From positions 1 through 20,184 of IMG/VR virus record IMGVR_UViG_3300013103_000077: 20,184 bases of DNA. One strand, 5' to 3'. A program made the translations under genes and the position numbers. Of this stretch, positions 1,451 to 20,184 are shown in pieces; position 1 is the first letter of the stretch; each line of letters opens with the position of its first letter. The stretch comes from a virus. Under the pieces are notes generated by a model. That model worked only from the letters and a program-made list of their open reading frames with translations. It made no database searches and had not been told where the DNA came from.

Positions 1451-3313
1451 TCATAAACCTCCTAAGTCTAAATCTAATGCTTCATCTAAAGCATCTTGTA
1501 CATTTGTAGCTGAGCTACCACTTGTTGCATTGTCATAACCAATACCATTTGCTTGTGTAGATACATCATAACTACTTGATGAAGCTATAACTACTTTAAA
1601 AGTATCCAAACTATAACCAGTATCATCAGCAACTATTTCAAATCTTACAGTTAAATCAGCATTTGGAATAGCATTTTTCCCCACTGTTAATAAGAATGTT
1701 GGTGCGATTGTTTCAGTATCTCCATTTGGGATAGCTAATGTTACATCAAATGATTTTAGTACGGTATCATCAGCAACATTTATAACTTTAACAGATACTA
1801 CCCTTGCTTGGTTTATATCACTTGTAAAGGTCATCGCAGAATAAAAATTAATACTTGCATTTGTTTTAAATGTTACTGTATCATTTTCATCGCTAATATC
1901 AAATATATCTGTGTCAGTTGATGGTGTAGTTGAATTGATACTTATAGTTTGTTGTGTTGTAGTAATAGCTATTGAATCATCTTCTTCTATAACTGCTTGA
2001 GCTGTAGCTAAATTTGCGATTGATTCTGCATTAGAAATACAACAACCTTGAACAGTTTCAATACTTGTATCTACTTCATCTTTGCTGTAAACACTTAAGT
2101 TGGTTCTACTTGCTTCAATATCTGTAACATCACTTAAATTATTATCTTGGGCTAAAAAATCTCCAGATGTTGCACTTGCTTTTTCAGCCCAATGTTTAGA
2201 TGAATATTCAGCTGTATCCGTTGCAGTAAAATTACCATCTCCATTTGAAGTATAAGTCTTAACAAAAACATCTTCAGCTTCAGTAGCATAACTATCTGCT
2301 GTCATTTTAAATGCTTCTGCTTCCCATACTTTAAGTTGAGCATTAGTTACACTTGTTGATGCTTGTCCTGCTGAACCTGAAGCTGAATTTGCACTTGCTA
2401 AGGCTTCAGCAGCTTTAATTGTAGCTATTTCTGCTTTTGCAGTAGCAATATTAGCATTTTCTTCTGCATTTTGTATATCAAGTATATTGTCTGCATTAGT
2501 ATTGATAGCATTTATGTTTGAAGCATTAGTATTAATACTATCTATATTGGTTGCATTAATATTTATATTGCCTATACCATCTGCAACTATTCCAATTTTT
2601 GATGTACCTTCTCCACCTTCAACTTCTTCTGTAATGCTTCCATTATCTTCTATGTAAGAATATTGATTTGATAAATCATTTCCAACTATTTCTGCAAGAG
2701 TTAAACCATCAAATACAGCATCAAGTTTTACTTTATCAGCATACAAACTATCAAGAGTAATTTTGTCAGCAAATATTGAATCAAGAGTTTCTTTATCAGC
2801 AAACAAACTATCTAGTGTAGCCTTATCTGCATATAGACTATCTAATGTAGCTTTGTCTGCATAAATACTGTCAAGAATTGTTTTATCTGCATACAGTGAG
2901 TCTAATGTTACTTTATCTGCATATAGACTATTTATAGCAGTCTGCATACCTACTACTGTCACTATGTATGTTATATTAGTAGCATTAGTGTTAATGCTTT
3001 CAATATTATTTGCATTAGTATTAATATCATCTATATTCGCAACAATAATATTAATATCTGATGGATTCTCATCTAATTCATCAAGACCATCTGCAACTCT
3101 AACTTCTATTTTTTTTACTTCTGTTGATGCTATTTCATCATTAAGAATTAATGTATTATTTATTAAGTCATAATCATCATACCGAAATTGCTCCCAGCTA
3201 TCATCAACTGTTAGTTGTTTATATATAGCACAATGTTGTTTTGTAGGTATATGTCTGCTTGAAACAAATTTTTGAGCAGTTGTTGTGATTACAAAATACT
3301 GTGAACTAACCAT
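1451..3313 (-). CDS. Tail fibre protein (T7 gp17-like N-terminal architecture)
   Basis: This is a 620-aa product with strong SD GGAG before the ATG. The first ~80 residues look like the beta-rich attachment domain of T7-type fibres. They are followed by heptad-like NINTNATNI repeats (about 92-118 and 248-275), seven 10-residue LYADK-TLDS repeats (129-198), and an Ala-rich helical region (283-345). The typical fibre motif YSSKHWAEKA is at 370-379, then NNLSDVTDIEASRTNL (391-406) ending in VYSKDEV. The C-terminus is a Ser/Thr/Val-rich beta domain with GYDNATSGSSATNVQDALDE, a common fibre tail motif. It follows tail tubular protein B with a 10-nt gap. The fibre shaft is presumably trimeric; receptor specificity cannot be read from sequence. 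Confidence 0.85.
   Translation of the reverse strand: MVSSQYFVITTTAQKFVSSRHIPTKQHCAIYKQLTVDDSWEQFRYDDYDLINNTLILNDEIASTEVKKIEVRVADGLDELDENPSDINIIVANIDDINTNANNIESINTNATNITYIVTVVGMQTAINSLYADKVTLDSLYADKTILDSIYADKATLDSLYADKATLDSLFADKETLDSIFADKITLDSLYADKVKLDAVFDGLTLAEIVGNDLSNQYSYIEDNGSITEEVEGGEGTSKIGIVADGIGNININATNIDSINTNASNINAINTNADNILDIQNAEENANIATAKAEIATIKAAEALASANSASGSAGQASTSVTNAQLKVWEAEAFKMTADSYATEAEDVFVKTYTSNGDGNFTATDTAEYSSKHWAEKASATSGDFLAQDNNLSDVTDIEASRTNLSVYSKDEVDTSIETVQGCCISNAESIANLATAQAVIEEDDSIAITTTQQTISINSTTPSTDTDIFDISDENDTVTFKTNASINFYSAMTFTSDINQARVVSVKVINVADDTVLKSFDVTLAIPNGDTETIAPTFLLTVGKNAIPNADLTVRFEIVADDTGYSLDTFKVVIASSSSYDVSTQANGIGYDNATSGSSATNVQDALDEALDLDLGGL
2720..2929 (-). repeat. 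Seven tandem 30-bp repeats in the fibre gene (10-aa LYADK-TLDS units)
   Basis: Residues 129-198 of the fibre contain seven successive decapeptides of form S-[LI]-[YF]-A-D-K-x-x-L-D. The period is exactly 30 bp at DNA level. Such periodic segments usually form rod-like coiled coil in fibre shafts, and repeat number can vary by slippage or recombination. Confidence 0.9.
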
Positions 3314-10143: not shown

Positions 10144-10716
10144 TTATAAGTAAAAATCATCTGGAACTTTAGTATCTAAAAGATTCTCATTATAAGTTTC
10201 TCTCAGTCCTATAATGTCAAATACCAAATGTATTCTGTCACTGTCACCATTGACAACAGAGTGTTCAACCATATTATTCAATTCAAACACTTCTCCTTCT
10301 TTGAAATGCCTACTCTCACCACCAACAATGAACTTGCAATCTTCATTAGTTGTGATTGGTATGTGTATTCGATGTGCTATGTCATAAATTCCCCCTGAGT
10401 CGATATGTGTATCTATTATTTTATTAGCTTCAAGCTTAACAAGTACCAAAGATTGAAATTGAATATGCTTATATCCATAATGTTTTTTTATTTTTTCAAC
10501 AGCATCTTCTAGTAGTGGATGATATTTCATAAAAACTTCTGCATCCATAAATCCATCAACATCGTGAAGGACATTATATAGTCCTACAACAATTCTTGTA
10601 AATCTTTGGTTGAGCAAAAGCTCCCTCATACTTCTTTTTGAGAAGTCTTCTTGTTTTGCTAAGTAAGAAATCTCTTCAAAGCTATCTGTTTTACCAAATT
10701 CAACAAAGTTACCCAT
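10144..10716 (-). CDS. Aspartyl/asparaginyl beta-hydroxylase-like 2-oxoglutarate/Fe(II) oxygenase
   Basis: This is a 190-aa product. The C-terminal half matches the Asp/Asn hydroxylase fold: T-H-I-D (103-106) gives H104 and D106 as metal ligands, R-I-H-I-P-I (116-121), GGESRHFKEGEVFELNN (132-148), then H152 in the E-H-S-V-V-N motif and R161 in D-R-I-H-L-V-F-D as the likely 2-oxoglutarate anchor. All key residues are present. The N-terminal ~85 residues are unassigned. Its ATG overlaps the GNAT stop (TAATG), so the two are translationally linked, ahead of the virion genes. The target (protein side chain or small molecule) is unknown; related oxygenases occur in several marine and aquatic phages. 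Confidence 0.85.
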   Translation of the reverse strand: MGNFVEFGKTDSFEEISYLAKQEDFSKRSMRELLLNQRFTRIVVGLYNVLHDVDGFMDAEVFMKYHPLLEDAVEKIKKHYGYKHIQFQSLVLVKLEANKIIDTHIDSGGIYDIAHRIHIPITTNEDCKFIVGGESRHFKEGEVFELNNMVEHSVVNGDSDRIHLVFDIIGLRETYNENLLDTKVPDDFYL

Positions 10717-11171
10717 TACTTTAACCTTTTAGAATAGATAACTTCAGCTACACCATATCCCATTTTCTCAAGGAATCTACCAAAGTTATTACTAACCTTA
10801 GTATGTTGTAAAATATTATCTACATTTCTAAGTTTCAACTCTTCTTCACACTTTTTTAATAGTTTCATAGCAATTCTAGTACCTCTTTTACCATCAACTA
10901 CATAAAATACATCTTGATGTGCATCAATAAAATCCATACAGTGCATATTTGGACTGACAAACCAAGCTGAATAACCAACAATAGTATTATTATCATCTCT
11001 TGCAACCACTATAAATGCTTGTTTTGATTTTTCCATTAATAAATATTTAGCTATATATGGATTTAAGTGCATATCTTTTCTATTTACTAACTCAAGTCTT
11101 TGTGTTTCAAGCACTGCCCACATCTCATCGAATAGTTTTTCTGTTATTGGTTCTACTTCATACTTAATCAT
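10716..11171 (-). CDS. GNAT-family N-acetyltransferase-like protein
   Basis: This is a 151-aa product. GNAT landmarks: an N-terminal beta-alpha unit (IKYEVEPITEKLFDEMW), a central strand pair (A-F-I-V-V-A-R-D and T-I-V-G-Y-S-A-W, 52-70), the acetyl-CoA motif region D-V-F-Y-V-V-D-G-K-R-G-T-R-I-A-M-K-L-L (87-105) where R96-G97 and A101 occupy the R/Q-x-x-G-x-G/A loop, and a C-terminal N-N-F-G-R-F-L-E-K-M-G-Y element (128-139) typical of GNATs. It overlaps the 62-aa gene upstream by 8 nt and the oxygenase downstream by 1 nt. Phages with T7-like heads often have a GNAT here; the substrate is unknown. Confidence 0.8.
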   Translation of the reverse strand: MIKYEVEPITEKLFDEMWAVLETQRLELVNRKDMHLNPYIAKYLLMEKSKQAFIVVARDDNNTIVGYSAWFVSPNMHCMDFIDAHQDVFYVVDGKRGTRIAMKLLKKCEEELKLRNVDNILQHTKVSNNFGRFLEKMGYGVAEVIYSKRLK

Positions 11172-16299: not shown

Positions 16300-16657
16300 T
16301 CAATGTATAAATACAGCAATGATTCAGTGCTTTTGGTGTGGAGAAGCAAGTGGTATTGCAATAGGACAAAAGTTAGTTAGTTGTGATAAGAAATGGAAGA
16401 CAAATTATATATTTGGTGGTTATGAACCTTGTGATAAATGTAAAGAGAATAGAGAAAAAGGTTTTACAGTTGTTCAAGCACAAGATAAGCCAGTTAACGA
16501 AGGACAGCCAGAAATACAAGATGGAATTTATCCTACTGGTGTTTGGATAGTAGTTAAAAATGAATCTTTGGTTGAATTATTAGGTCAAGAAACAGTTGAT
16601 TTAGGTATGTGTTTTATGGACAAAGAAATGATGGAAAAAATAGGATTAATAAGATGA
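16292..16657 (+). CDS. Zinc-ribbon phage protein
   Basis: This is a 121-aa product with SD GGAGG 8 nt upstream. C13-x2-C16 (Q-C-F-W-C-G-E-A-S) and C47-x2-C50 (E-P-C-D-K-C-K) form a four-Cys zinc-binding site. The layout that follows, G-F-T-V-V-Q-A (57-63), D-K-P-V-N-E-G-Q-P-E-I, then Y-P-T-G-V-W-I-V-V-K (80-89), recurs in uncharacterised phage proteins with the same order. Its stop overlaps the YkgJ-like start (ATGA). Function unknown; a protein- or nucleic-acid-binding adaptor is plausible. Confidence 0.7.
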   Translation: MSNQCINTAMIQCFWCGEASGIAIGQKLVSCDKKWKTNYIFGGYEPCDKCKENREKGFTVVQAQDKPVNEGQPEIQDGIYPTGVWIVVKNESLVELLGQETVDLGMCFMDKEMMEKIGLIR

Positions 16658-17103
16658 GTTTAAGTTGTGAAGAATGTGTTAAGACAGATAATCATTGTTG
16701 TTTAGCAGATATACCATTGGATGTATTAGAAGGATTATTTCTATCTAAACTTGCAAAAGATATAGGTATAGATGTTATGTTGGTTGAGCATCCAAAGTTC
16801 AATGAAAAGTTAGTGATACTACCAAAAGATACTCCACAAGGAACTGATATTACTCATATACCTTGTGCATTTTTAAAAGATGGTAGATGTAGTGTGTATG
16901 AAAATAGACCATTTATTTGTAGAAGTTATGGAACTGAGTTTATCAAATGCAGATATGAAGTTGCAGGGATTACAGCCAAAGAAGAGATTGAATCACTTTC
17001 AGTAGAAGAAATTAAAAAGTTAGATTCAGATTCTCATCTTGCAAGTGGTGCTAAAAGTCATTTTGATGAAACTCAAATATATAGATGTGGAGTTAAGAAA
17101 TGA
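16654..17103 (+). CDS. YkgJ-family cysteine-cluster protein (metal or Fe-S binding)
   Basis: ATG at 16654 (ATGA with the preceding stop, AGGA about 10 nt upstream) gives 149 aa; an upstream in-frame ATG at 16609 would lie within the previous gene. Cysteines C5-x2-C8, C15-C16, and the block P-C-A-F-L-K-D-G-R-C-S-V-Y-E-N-R-P-F-I-C-R-S-Y-G (70-93, with C71, C79 and C89) plus C99 match the YkgJ/CxxCx8CxxC-type zinc- or iron-chelating family. All conserved positions are present. Biochemical roles of this family are poorly known. It couples to a coiled-coil gene downstream (ATGA). Confidence 0.82.
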   Translation: MSLSCEECVKTDNHCCLADIPLDVLEGLFLSKLAKDIGIDVMLVEHPKFNEKLVILPKDTPQGTDITHIPCAFLKDGRCSVYENRPFICRSYGTEFIKCRYEVAGITAKEEIESLSVEEIKKLDSDSHLASGAKSHFDETQIYRCGVKK

Positions 17104-17395: not shown

Positions 17396-18337
17396 ATGAG
17401 TACAAAAATAACAAACAATACTGGAATCAGTTTACCAATAGCTGTATGGTTAGCAATAGATGAATATGATTATAGTGACCAAGAAAATTTAATATCAGCT
17501 ACAACATTAATAAAACCAGTAAAGCAAATAGTTTTAGGTAGAAGATATAAAGAAGCTGATAAAGAGATGGATGTAGCTGATTTACTTGCAGTTAAAATGG
17601 GTACAGCTTTCCATAATGATATTGAAAATGCTTGGAAATTAAAAGATAAATGTATTGAAGCTCTTACTGCATTTGGATATAAAAATCCTGAAGCAATATA
17701 TGACAAAATTACATTTGAGAAGAGAAGCTCAAAAGAATTTGGACGATACGAAGTATCGGGAAAATTCGATTTGGTTTTTGATGGTATAGTTGCAGATATT
17801 AAAAGTACATCAACTTGGACATATATATTTGGTTCAAATGATGATGCCTATATAAAGCAATTAAGCATTTATAGAGTTCTTCATCCAGATTTAATTGTAA
17901 ATGATGCAGGCTATATTGAGTTTATCTTTACTGATTGGTCTGCTGTAAAAGCTAAACAAGATTCTCAATATCCACAACAAAGAGTTGCAACTAAAAAGAT
18001 GGAACTTATGAGTGTTACAGACACAGAAAAATGGATTACAGATAAACTTGCATTGGTTGAGAAGACTGAAAAATTACCTGATAATAAGCTCCCAGACTGT
18101 ACTGATGAAGAGTTATGGAAAAAAGAAGACAAATGGAAGTATTATGGTATTAAAGGTGCTAAGAGAGCTATTAAGGTGTTTAATACACAAGCTGATGCAG
18201 AGTTAATGTTATCAGTAAAAGGTAAAGGTGAAGTTAAAAAGTTTGCTGGTGGTGTAAAAAGATGTAAATATTGTAGTTATATAAACTTCTGTGACCAATA
18301 TTCAAGACTACAAATGCAAGGACTTATTAATGACTAA
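17396..18337 (+). CDS. PD-(D/E)XK nuclease, Cas4/RecB-like phage exonuclease
   Basis: This is a 313-aa product with SD GGAGAG 6 nt upstream. RecB-type motifs: M-G-T-A-F-H (68-73, H73), K-F-D-L-V-F-D-G-I-V-A-D-I-K-S-T (123-138) giving D134 and K136 of the D-x-K core, and K-Q-L-S-I-Y-R (154-160, Q155). Then C235 in L-P-D-C-T-D-E-E-L-W, a K-W-K-Y-Y-G-I-K-G-A-K-R-A segment, and C290-x2-C293-x5-C299 at the end. The four cysteines have the arrangement of Cas4/AddB-like nucleases that hold a 4Fe-4S cluster. Such nucleases are usual in the DNA-metabolism block of T7-like phages (host DNA degradation or recombination). Catalytic residues are complete; cluster binding is inferred. Confidence 0.88.
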   Translation: MSTKITNNTGISLPIAVWLAIDEYDYSDQENLISATTLIKPVKQIVLGRRYKEADKEMDVADLLAVKMGTAFHNDIENAWKLKDKCIEALTAFGYKNPEAIYDKITFEKRSSKEFGRYEVSGKFDLVFDGIVADIKSTSTWTYIFGSNDDAYIKQLSIYRVLHPDLIVNDAGYIEFIFTDWSAVKAKQDSQYPQQRVATKKMELMSVTDTEKWITDKLALVEKTEKLPDNKLPDCTDEELWKKEDKWKYYGIKGAKRAIKVFNTQADAELMLSVKGKGEVKKFAGGVKRCKYCSYINFCDQYSRLQMQGLIND

Positions 18338-18530
18338 AAATATATCAATGTCATTTGTTGAATTTGAAGAAATCATCAATAGTGCAATTTCTTTTTCAGA
18401 CTTAATTTCTATGTGTATTAAAGCTGAAAATATAAATAACCCAGAATATCAAAAGTATATGAAAGAAGCTTCTGAGCTTTTTAACTTAAGTATGGTAAAA
18501 ATAAAAAATAAGATAGGAGAAAACAAATGA
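18330..18530 (+). CDS. Small hypothetical protein, 66 aa
   Basis: ATG at 18330 overlaps the nuclease end by 8 nt and has AAGGA 7-8 nt upstream; an earlier in-frame ATG at 18291 lies deep within the nuclease gene. The product is helical, with F-V-E-F-E-E-I-I-N-S-A-I-S-F-S-D-L-I and a C-terminal E-A-S-E-L-F-N-L-S-M-V-K-I. No family is recognised. Confidence 0.65.
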   Translation: MTKNISMSFVEFEEIINSAISFSDLISMCIKAENINNPEYQKYMKEASELFNLSMVKIKNKIGENK

Positions 18531-18823
18531 CCAAAGATGAAATATATTTTATAAGTCAAGTAGAGTTAAATAGAGGTGTAATTAAAAGTGTAAAACATAA
18601 AGATATGTTATGTGATATTCTTGGATTAGGAACAAAAACTATTCAAGATGAATTAACAAATGCAAAGCATCTTGGTATTAAGTTTTATTGGGATGTAGTT
18701 CAAAAGCTAAATCATACTGAACAAAATGATTTAATTGCTAGATTTTCAAGAGGAAGATATAGCAAGGTTGCAGCACAAATAATTTTCAATGATATAGTAT
18801 TGAAACAAACAAAAGGAGTTTAA
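18527..18823 (+). CDS. Hypothetical protein, 98 aa
   Basis: The start overlaps the upstream stop (ATGA) with TAGGAG 7 nt upstream. The product looks helical: I-L-G-L-G-T-K-T-I-Q-D-E-L-T (31-44) resembles a turn between two helices, but no certain HTH is assigned. It sits one base ahead of the AAA+ gene. The order nuclease, small protein, small protein, AAA+ suggests one DNA-metabolism operon. Confidence 0.65.
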   Translation: MTKDEIYFISQVELNRGVIKSVKHKDMLCDILGLGTKTIQDELTNAKHLGIKFYWDVVQKLNHTEQNDLIARFSRGRYSKVAAQIIFNDIVLKQTKGV

Positions 18824-18824
18824 A

Positions 18825-20168
18825 ATGGCAAAAGCAAGTGTAATGAGTTGGGAAAACAAAAAAGTATCAAATGTAAATGAAAATATACAAATGACAGTGG
18901 CTAATAAAAAGTTAGCAGTTTTAAATATAGTTACGTTTGATATTGTTGATACTGATGTTGAAGTAGTTGAAAATGATTTCTTTGGTAATGCAGGTATTCC
19001 TGATGGAAGTGAATCATCAACTCAAAAGTGTATTGCATATTTAATTACAGATAAAAATGGAACAGTATGTGGAAGTAATGACTGGTTAGATGGTTCATCT
19101 AAAAAGTTTGCATTAGAAACTTATCCTGAAGAGATGATTCCAGTTATCAAGAAGTCAATTAATCTAAATAAAGGTATGACAGAAAGTATTGGAGTTGATA
19201 TTCATTATGTTACATTTAATAAGATAGAAGAACTTTCACCTGAAATGTTAGAAGTGCTGCAACCAAAGATTGAGAAGTCACAAGCTGCATATAAAGATTT
19301 AAACAGTCAAATTGCTAAATTCAAAATGGCAGATGGTACATCTGATTTAGATAGCTTTTTGGATAGATATATGTTCAAAAAGCATATTCTTATTCAAGGT
19401 GAAAAAGGTGGTGGTAAAACTTATGCAGTTGATGCAAAGTTAAGAGATGAAGGTATTGATTCAGAGTTTATCTCAGGTCACGAAGGTATTGAAGCAACTG
19501 ACTTATTAGGTTATACATTGCCAAGTAAAGATGAAACTGTTTGGTTAGATGGTGCATTAACAAGAGCATTTAGAAAGGCTGTTGATGGTAAAGTTGCATT
19601 GTTTATTGATGAAACACTTAGAATCCCTGCAAGAGAGTTAAATATCTTGGTTGGTGCAATTACTCCATCTTCTGTTGGTACATATAGACTTAGAACAAAT
19701 AGATTAGTTAATGTTATTGATGGTGTTGGAGAAACTGAAGTAATTGAAGTGCCAATGGGTAATCTATGGGTAATTGGAACAACAAATGTTGGAGCTGGTT
19801 ATGCTGTTGATGAAATTGATGATGCACTTGCAGATAGATTTATTGTGGTAAATAAAATTACAACCAATACAGAATTAGAAACCATCTTGTTAAGCTGTGC
19901 TTCTACAGATGGTATCAGTAATAAGATTGTTTCAGAGTTAATTGAATTTTATACTCAAATGAGAGATTTAGTTCTTGGTGGTGAGATTGAAAAGAATGTA
20001 AACACAAGACATTTATGTGAAGTGTTACAGTTTGCAGAAAGTGATGCTGAGATTAAAAGTTATCTTATGGATAGATTACCAACTTGGACAAGTATTGATG
20101 CAAATGGGAATCCTAACAAGGCAGAAAAAACTATTATCACTAAACTGATTAGACGAATTATTAAGTAG
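18825..20168 (+). CDS. MoxR-type AAA+ ATPase
   Basis: This is a 447-aa product with AAAGGAG 6 nt upstream. An N-terminal ~175-residue domain of unknown type precedes the AAA+ core: Walker A G-E-K-G-G-G-K-T (192-199), E-A-T-D-L-L-G (223-229, the MoxR-type insert), L-D-G-A-L-T-R-A (241-248), Walker B A-L-F-I-D-E (258-263), sensor 1 T-T-N (319-321), and D-D-A-L-A-D-R-F (332-339) with the candidate arginine finger R338. These MoxR/CbbQ-like ATPases act as remodelling machines, usually with a VWA-domain partner encoded next door. A new gene starts 8 nt downstream. Substrate in phages is unknown. The ORF ends in R-R-I-I-K before TAG. Confidence 0.88.
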   Translation: MAKASVMSWENKKVSNVNENIQMTVANKKLAVLNIVTFDIVDTDVEVVENDFFGNAGIPDGSESSTQKCIAYLITDKNGTVCGSNDWLDGSSKKFALETYPEEMIPVIKKSINLNKGMTESIGVDIHYVTFNKIEELSPEMLEVLQPKIEKSQAAYKDLNSQIAKFKMADGTSDLDSFLDRYMFKKHILIQGEKGGGKTYAVDAKLRDEGIDSEFISGHEGIEATDLLGYTLPSKDETVWLDGALTRAFRKAVDGKVALFIDETLRIPARELNILVGAITPSSVGTYRLRTNRLVNVIDGVGETEVIEVPMGNLWVIGTTNVGAGYAVDEIDDALADRFIVVNKITTNTELETILLSCASTDGISNKIVSELIEFYTQMRDLVLGGEIEKNVNTRHLCEVLQFAESDAEIKSYLMDRLPTWTSIDANGNPNKAEKTIITKLIRRIIK

Positions 20169-20176
20169 GAGATGTT

Positions 20177-20184
20177 ATGGAAAA
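20177..20184 (+). CDS. Start of a further rightward gene (cut by window end)
   Basis: AGGAG at 20167-20171, 5-nt spacer, then ATG at 20177, followed by GAAAA. Only the first codons are visible. A VWA-domain partner of the AAA+ ATPase would be the usual neighbour, but the sequence does not show it. Confidence 0.55.

Follow-up and report, generated by a model that had tools for sequence, protein, structure and literature searches.

We investigated a putative operon in the virus record IMGVR_UViG_3300013103_000077 that joins the gene for an N4 gp42-type exonuclease (exo) to one for a MoxR-type AAA+ ATPase and runs into a further gene at the record end. The window analysed here is the whole of this record (20,184 bases, GC content 0.32). 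Close viral relatives of the ATPase are followed by a von Willebrand factor A (VWA) protein bearing a metal-ion-dependent adhesion site (MIDAS), and the truncated gene of the window probably encodes such a partner. Comparison of gene order places this ATPase–VWA pair inside an N4-type replication module, where related records suggest that it displaces gp24/gp25, the AAA+/VWA pair of N4-like phages. On balance, we read it as a phage MoxR-type remodelling machine that would act on a replication or recombination protein.

An exonuclease–ATPase operon at the end of a phage record

The operon closes the plus strand of the window:

17396–18337, plus strand: exo, a RecB-type PD-(D/E)XK exonuclease of the N4 gp42 family, 313 amino acids (phrog_2139, E = 6e-106)
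18330–18530, plus strand: small open reading frame (ORF) 1, 66 amino acids, best start ATG 18330; no counterpart in the set of small ORFs examined
18527–18823, plus strand: small ORF 2, 98 amino acids; a relative lies right before the ATPase gene in loci L078 and L080
18825–20168, plus strand: MoxR/CbbQ-class AAA+ ATPase, 447 amino acids (AAA_5, 38.9 bits)
20177–20184, plus strand: first bases of a further gene (ATG GAA AA...), truncated where the record stops; putative VWA/MIDAS partner, from the VWA genes downstream in relatives

Successive junctions measure -8, -4, +1 and +8 nt, overlaps and gaps small enough to fit one operon, and the tight linkage proposed in the original prediction, including a further gene 8 nt after the ATPase, holds in coordinates and spacing. 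AGGAG precedes ATG 20177, and this last gene is unreadable because the record stops at 20,184, eight bases (two codons) into it. Upstream of exo the plus strand carries a run of small genes, and the minus strand holds a T7-like virion module (portal phrog_449, tail phrog_446 and phrog_457, head phrog_267).

The assignment of the ATPase to the MoxR type was borne out. It exceeds the Pfam AAA_5 cutoff of 22 bits and carries a Walker A motif (residues 192-199, GEKGGGKT), a Walker B motif (D262-E263, LFIDE), a sensor-1-like N321 and an arginine-finger-like R338, together with an N-terminal extension of ~170 amino acids; alignment columns that do not vary support these motif assignments. The nearest solved sequence in a single-sequence search was NorQ (E = 2e-7), and a profile of 11 relatives matched midasin best among solved proteins (1.6e-22), then NorQ and CbbQ. 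Because the window ATPase gave no match to CbbQ_C (PF08406), a domain present in a Thermovibrio relative, we class it only as MoxR-like and not as a CbbQ/NorQ member. An AlphaFold model of it made without an alignment had a pLDDT of 34 and was not used. Searching 50,697 phage records with the window ATPase by tblastn returned nothing at E 1e-5 and 11 weak records at E <= 10 (best E 3e-3), and a single-protein scan of viral contigs returned no match. Phage copies and a Variovorax copy cluster at 99/99 in the ATPase tree, which contains several long branches and two N4 gp24 rows left uncropped (their Walker A pattern was unmatched) and is used only as support.

Variation within the ATPase genes of relatives was also observed. 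The Walker A motif of L078, L080 and L083 reads GPSGASKT or GPAGSSKT, in which serine replaces the last glycine of the usual motif, a change that may affect ATP turnover in that branch. The L083 gene is split near residues 222/223 by a group I intron (L083:4103-5094; Rfam RF00028, 60.3 bits) with a NUMOD4-HNH ORF, and another complete group I intron match (L083:7637-7950, 60.1 bits) lies downstream of the VWA gene. A NUMOD4-HNH ORF likewise splits the L082 gene (L082:10106-10970) within Walker A, between residues 196/197 (GEKGG/GKT); this insertion matched no intron family of Rfam at the gathering threshold.

By its full-length profile match and retained catalytic residues, exo is an N4 gp42-type exonuclease. 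It matched 468 phage records by tblastn, is 42% identical to N4 gp42, which belongs to an orthologous family (phrog_2139), and shares with all 8 aligned phage proteins the residues H73, E108, D125, D134-x-K136 and Q155-xxx-Y159. Cysteines C235, C290, C293 and C299 are invariant in the same 8 proteins. The N4 gene is followed by a primase gene, whereas exo of the window is followed by the small ORFs and the ATPase gene.

The nuclease had been described as PD-(D/E)XK with a Cas4/AddB-type cysteine set; the nuclease and its four cysteines stand, whereas the Cas4-type placement and label do not. In Cas4, AddB and Dna2 the first of the four cysteines precedes the nuclease core, unlike exo, in which all four lie C-terminal of it. 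The PADLOC Cas4 profile reached just E 0.069, no cas1 or cas2 annotation was found around three homologues, and no Cas family was found among the window neighbours tested.

The two small proteins had been put forward as adaptors between nuclease and ATPase, a proposal that their distribution does not favour. In a comparison covering five relatives (L073, L078, L079, L080 and L083), small ORF 1 had no relative among the small ORFs, and small ORF 2 had relatives in L078 and L080 only, directly before the ATPase (37% over 67 amino acids and 42% over 59 amino acids). The small ORFs before the ATPase in L073, L079 and L083 are unrelated to those of the window, and L074-L076 and L085 leave no room for one. 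Small ORF 2 matched record G060 (tblastn, 1.8e-8) and gave no match in a single-protein scan of viral contigs.

A VWA protein follows the ATPase in viral relatives

An alignment-based scan found 14 loci, 13 of them close. L086 (26% identity) was set aside, as were L066-L071 (21-33%); of these seven, L067, L069, L070 and L071 encode a DxSGS protein after the ATPase, and L066, L068 and L086 showed none next to it. The 13 close contigs amount to about 10 distinct lineages, given ATPase identities of 96-98% among L074, L075 and L076 and of 100% between L077 and L078 (L060-L065 are further labels for contigs L074, L075, L076, L079, L082 and L084).

A MoxR ATPase had been expected to come with a VWA partner, and in all 13 close contigs the ATPase has a VWA protein with the MIDAS motif D-x-S-G-S downstream of it, recognized directly by a VWA profile in 12 of them. 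In the thirteenth, L084 (record G057), the ATPase continues across a direct terminal repeat at the other end of the contig and is then directly followed by a 576-amino-acid VWA protein; because of this repeat, G057 is probably a complete circular map. ATPase and VWA genes are separated by 0-10 nt in most relatives and by 116-682 nt in five (L073-L076 and L085). From these arrangements a VWA gene is the probable immediate successor of the window ATPase, and very likely lies within the next two genes.

D-x-S-G-S and T-D-G are invariant in all 11 aligned VWA proteins. Four of the five phage VWA proteins submitted to Pfam (L060-L064) had no VWA match at E <= 1, and the fifth reached 13.6 bits for VWA_2, below the cutoff of 27; a tblastn search with the L073 VWA protein against the 50,697 phage records gave no match at E <= 1. 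An AlphaFold model of the L073 VWA protein (464 amino acids, mean pLDDT 59.6, residues 300-462 good) gave 167 Foldseek matches at E <= 0.001, with VWA domains throughout and E values down to 1.6e-6. Upon re-alignment, the Rea1 MIDAS domain was best (Z 14.1, 198 aligned residues, root-mean-square deviation 3.7), followed by NorD in the NorQ-NorD complex (Z 13.7, 181 aligned, deviation 3.1); ordinary VWA domains reached Z <= 12.2, a modest margin. As modelled, the VWA fold of the relatives' partner protein is not in doubt.

Among solved proteins the VWA profile best matched CobT (6.9e-5), which bears on whether the pair is CobST-like, activating a host chelatase and thereby raising cobalamin and nucleotide synthesis. 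A cobalamin role is proposed for viral cobST in a passage of PMC8651126, and Vibrio phage ICP2 of the Zobellviridae, a podovirus, has an annotated CobT-CobS pair that is, as here, an AAA+/VWA pair in the replication region. Its gene order is CobT then CobS, however, its CobT carries a CobT_C domain, and no N4-type exo is annotated in the region inspected. CobT_C (PF11775) was absent at E <= 1 from the phage VWA proteins of L060-L063 and of L064, with ICP2 CobT scoring 96 bits as a control, and the ATPase matches NorQ, CbbQ and midasin far better than CobS, leaving a CobST-like activity very improbable.

The pair lies beside a nuclease and within an N4-type replication module

A nuclease flanks the ATPase–VWA pair in 11 of the 13 contigs, upstream of the ATPase in nine and downstream of the VWA gene in two; the remaining contigs, L077 and L081, lack upstream sequence, as they begin within the ATPase gene or only a short way before it. 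The conserved linkage that the original prediction called for is thus present in these relatives. Both downstream nucleases belong to relatives with T7-type virions (L082/G056, PDDEXK_1 above cutoff; L084/G057, profile E 1.3e-10), and these divergent proteins likewise end in four closely placed cysteines.

The closest relative, L073 (ATPase 49% and exo 53% identical), has exo, two small ORFs, the ATPase and the VWA gene in that order, with primase phrog_2135, Sak4 phrog_2872 and single-stranded DNA-binding protein (SSB) phrog_743 following later, and N4 has exo, primase, Sak4 and SSB in a row. Set against each other, these orders place the pair inside an N4-type replication module.

This module accompanies more than one virion type. 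Among 17 records, including two control records, the window-type portal was found in G056, G057 and G058 (3/17) and an N4-type portal in G055, G059, G060 and the two controls (5/17). T7-type and N4-type portals both accompany the pair, which therefore moves together with the replication genes from one virion type to another. G056, G057 and G058 (42-46 kb, T7-like virion) had no match to T7-type RNA polymerase (PF00940). A chimeric assembly of the window, with its T7-like virion and N4-like replication genes, is unlikely, as G058 has the same combination within 42 kb.

These arrangements bear on a role as a virion-assembly chaperone, in which the pair would help to fold, process or assemble capsid or tail proteins. 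Such a role has been proposed for jumbo phages with an archaeal-virus precedent, Acidianus two-tailed virus, in the relevant part of PMC7824862, and some virion proteins of the N4-like phage RPP1 are encoded near gp24/gp25 homologues, as a section of PMC4193335 describes. The window ATPase, however, lies on the strand opposite to the virion genes and amid replication genes, and the pair is retained alongside both T7-like and N4-like virions, which are unrelated to each other; we consider virion assembly unlikely.

The pair may displace gp24/gp25 of N4-like phages

MoxR–VWA pairs are already known in phages: such a gene pair is described in a halovirus (PMC7911831, in part), and tables in PMC4193335 and PMC7650795 list gp24 (AAA+ ATPase) and gp25 (vWFA) as core genes of the N4-like phages (Schitoviridae). 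The statement that the role of MoxR ATPases in podoviruses is not established is true of function, which listings in PMC4193335 and PMC2784036 give as unknown for gp24/gp25, but it overlooks this core pair. N4 gp25 (L003:11164-12306) matched Pfam DUF2201_N at 293 bits together with a DUF2201 VWA-like domain, making it a metallopeptidase-VWA protein. Its RefSeq label is 'HNH endonuclease', which a Vibrio phage homologue also bears.

The two kinds of AAA+/VWA pair apparently occupy the same slot and never occurred together in the records tested. Of the tested N4-type exo records lacking the new pair, 17 of 18 carry PF13203, the DUF2201_N family of gp25, as against 0 of the 14 records that have the pair. 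The 18 comprise N4 and the 17 longer contigs among 48 exo records (49 records without the pair in all); the sole one lacking DUF2201 was G036 (48.9 kb), and 0 of the 48 gave a match to the window ATPase. The strongest single case, G055 (71.7 kb), has 15 N4-type protein matches by tblastn, among them RNAP1 and RNAP2, DNA polymerase, exo, primase, Sak4, SSB, portal, major capsid protein, the terminase TerL and part of the virion RNA polymerase, with no match to gp24 or gp25 although the DNA polymerase–RNAP2 stretch is present. Together, these patterns suggest that the new pair displaces gp24/gp25 in N4-like phages. We found no description of such a displacement in open-licence PMC papers.

The two pairs differ in several respects. 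Window ATPase and gp24 show no real similarity by BLASTP (E 0.47), occupy different branches of the tree, with a warning for long-branch effects, and measure 447 and 352 amino acids, respectively. Unlike gp25, the phage VWA proteins of the new pair lack HExxH and DUF2201, the latter by Pfam in the five proteins scanned. The new pair adjoins exo, whereas gp24/gp25 lie 14 kb from it in N4.

Given how gp24/gp25 function is listed in those papers, a role in host takeover or counter-defence might be supposed, in which the pair would remodel a host or defence protein at an early stage of infection and its proximity to exo would be hitch-hiking. This seems doubtful: neither the ATPase nor the Variovorax VWA protein had a PADLOC match, and nuclease linkage survives the gene-order inversion in G056 and G057.

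That linkage also raises the possibility that the pair matures or activates the four-cysteine RecB-type nuclease itself, opening it for metal or Fe-S insertion or for DNA loading in the manner of NorQD, and that phages keep one such machine, of the gp24/gp25 or the new kind, wherever they keep this nuclease. The idea draws on the nuclease flanking the pair in both gene orders, on the four close cysteines ending the divergent G056/G057 nuclease, and on gp25 being carried by 17 of the 18 N4-type exo records tested that lack this pair. Set against it are the separation of the N4 pair from exo, plasmid relatives without an adjacent four-cysteine nuclease, and the putative nature of the Fe-S centre, and we hold it to be a tentative, rather improbable reading.

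A scan of genome contigs for ATPase relatives returned Variovorax only, on plasmids, with an ATPase 40% identical over 257 residues to that of the window and, 15 nt past it, a 563-amino-acid protein with both HExxH and DxSGS. The order, AAA+ then VWA, is that of the window's relatives, but the pair is plasmid-borne, has HExxH in its VWA protein and lacks an adjacent four-cysteine nuclease. It lies near Rad52 and a 3'-5' exonuclease, and a Thermovibrio plasmid pair lies near Rad52 and SSB.

A proposed remodelling machine for a replication or recombination protein

We somewhat favour a phage MoxR-type remodelling machine acting on a replication or recombination protein. The window operon would make two of the three parts of such a machine, together with an accompanying nuclease. 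By analogy with NorQ, CbbQ and Rea1, the AAA+ protein would form a hexamer, and its partner, from the next gene, would be a MIDAS-bearing VWA protein, as seen in the relatives. The VWA protein would dock in the ring and use its MIDAS metal to grip a target, which would be pulled or twisted as ATP is turned over. In the part of PMC13036017 describing NorQD, a NorD finger sits in the AAA+ pore and ATP turnover twists the NorD linker, and according to a passage of PMC9976466, NorD with a mutated MIDAS can still bind NorQ, but the target is no longer matured, for which reason the MIDAS probably holds the target. The two nor loci compared have the ATPase gene directly before the VWA gene, as here; NorQ, at 269-277 amino acids, lacks the 170-amino-acid N-terminal extension of the window ATPase, and the targets of NorQ/NorD and CbbQ/CbbO are bacterial metalloenzymes.

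The target would most likely be a phage replication or recombination protein because the pair is embedded among the replication genes (DNA polymerase, exo, primase, Sak4 and SSB) and seemingly replaces gp24/gp25, of which it is probably a functional counterpart. Several points weigh against this interpretation. The partner gene is not visible in the window record, and the longer gaps in 5 of the 13 relatives mean that the immediate next ORF could be a small one. The displacement among N4-type phages rests mainly on G055, which is incomplete at one end, stopping inside the virion RNA polymerase gene, because most of the 14 pair-bearing records are fragments, several of them near-identical. Genomic position gives no more than a hint of function, since in N4 itself gp24/gp25 are not adjacent to exo, and the RPP1 arrangement described above would fit an assembly role instead.

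A distant second AAA+/VWA pair that seemingly replaces gp24/gp25, passes between T7-type and N4-type virions and remains next to the replication nuclease would tie a conserved machine to DNA replication or recombination. It would also allow a swap test of whether either pair can rescue loss of the other. Furthermore, the pair extends MoxR–VWA machines to the phage replication module, with a VWA domain that falls below the Pfam cutoff in all phage copies scanned.

Further features of the window

Upstream of exo, the plus strand encodes a candidate metal-binding protein:

16657–17103, plus strand: putative CxxCxxCC metal-binding (metal-chelating) protein (PF03692, 24.0 bits, cutoff 23)

A relative of this protein (45%) lies just upstream of exo in G058. 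On the minus strand, positions 1451-3313 encode a tail-fibre-like protein containing successive DSLYADK-type repeats (phrog_22284), and positions 10144-11171 hold an acetyltransferase-like gene (phrog_1249) and an unassigned gene (phrog_32420) adjoining the portal end of the virion module.

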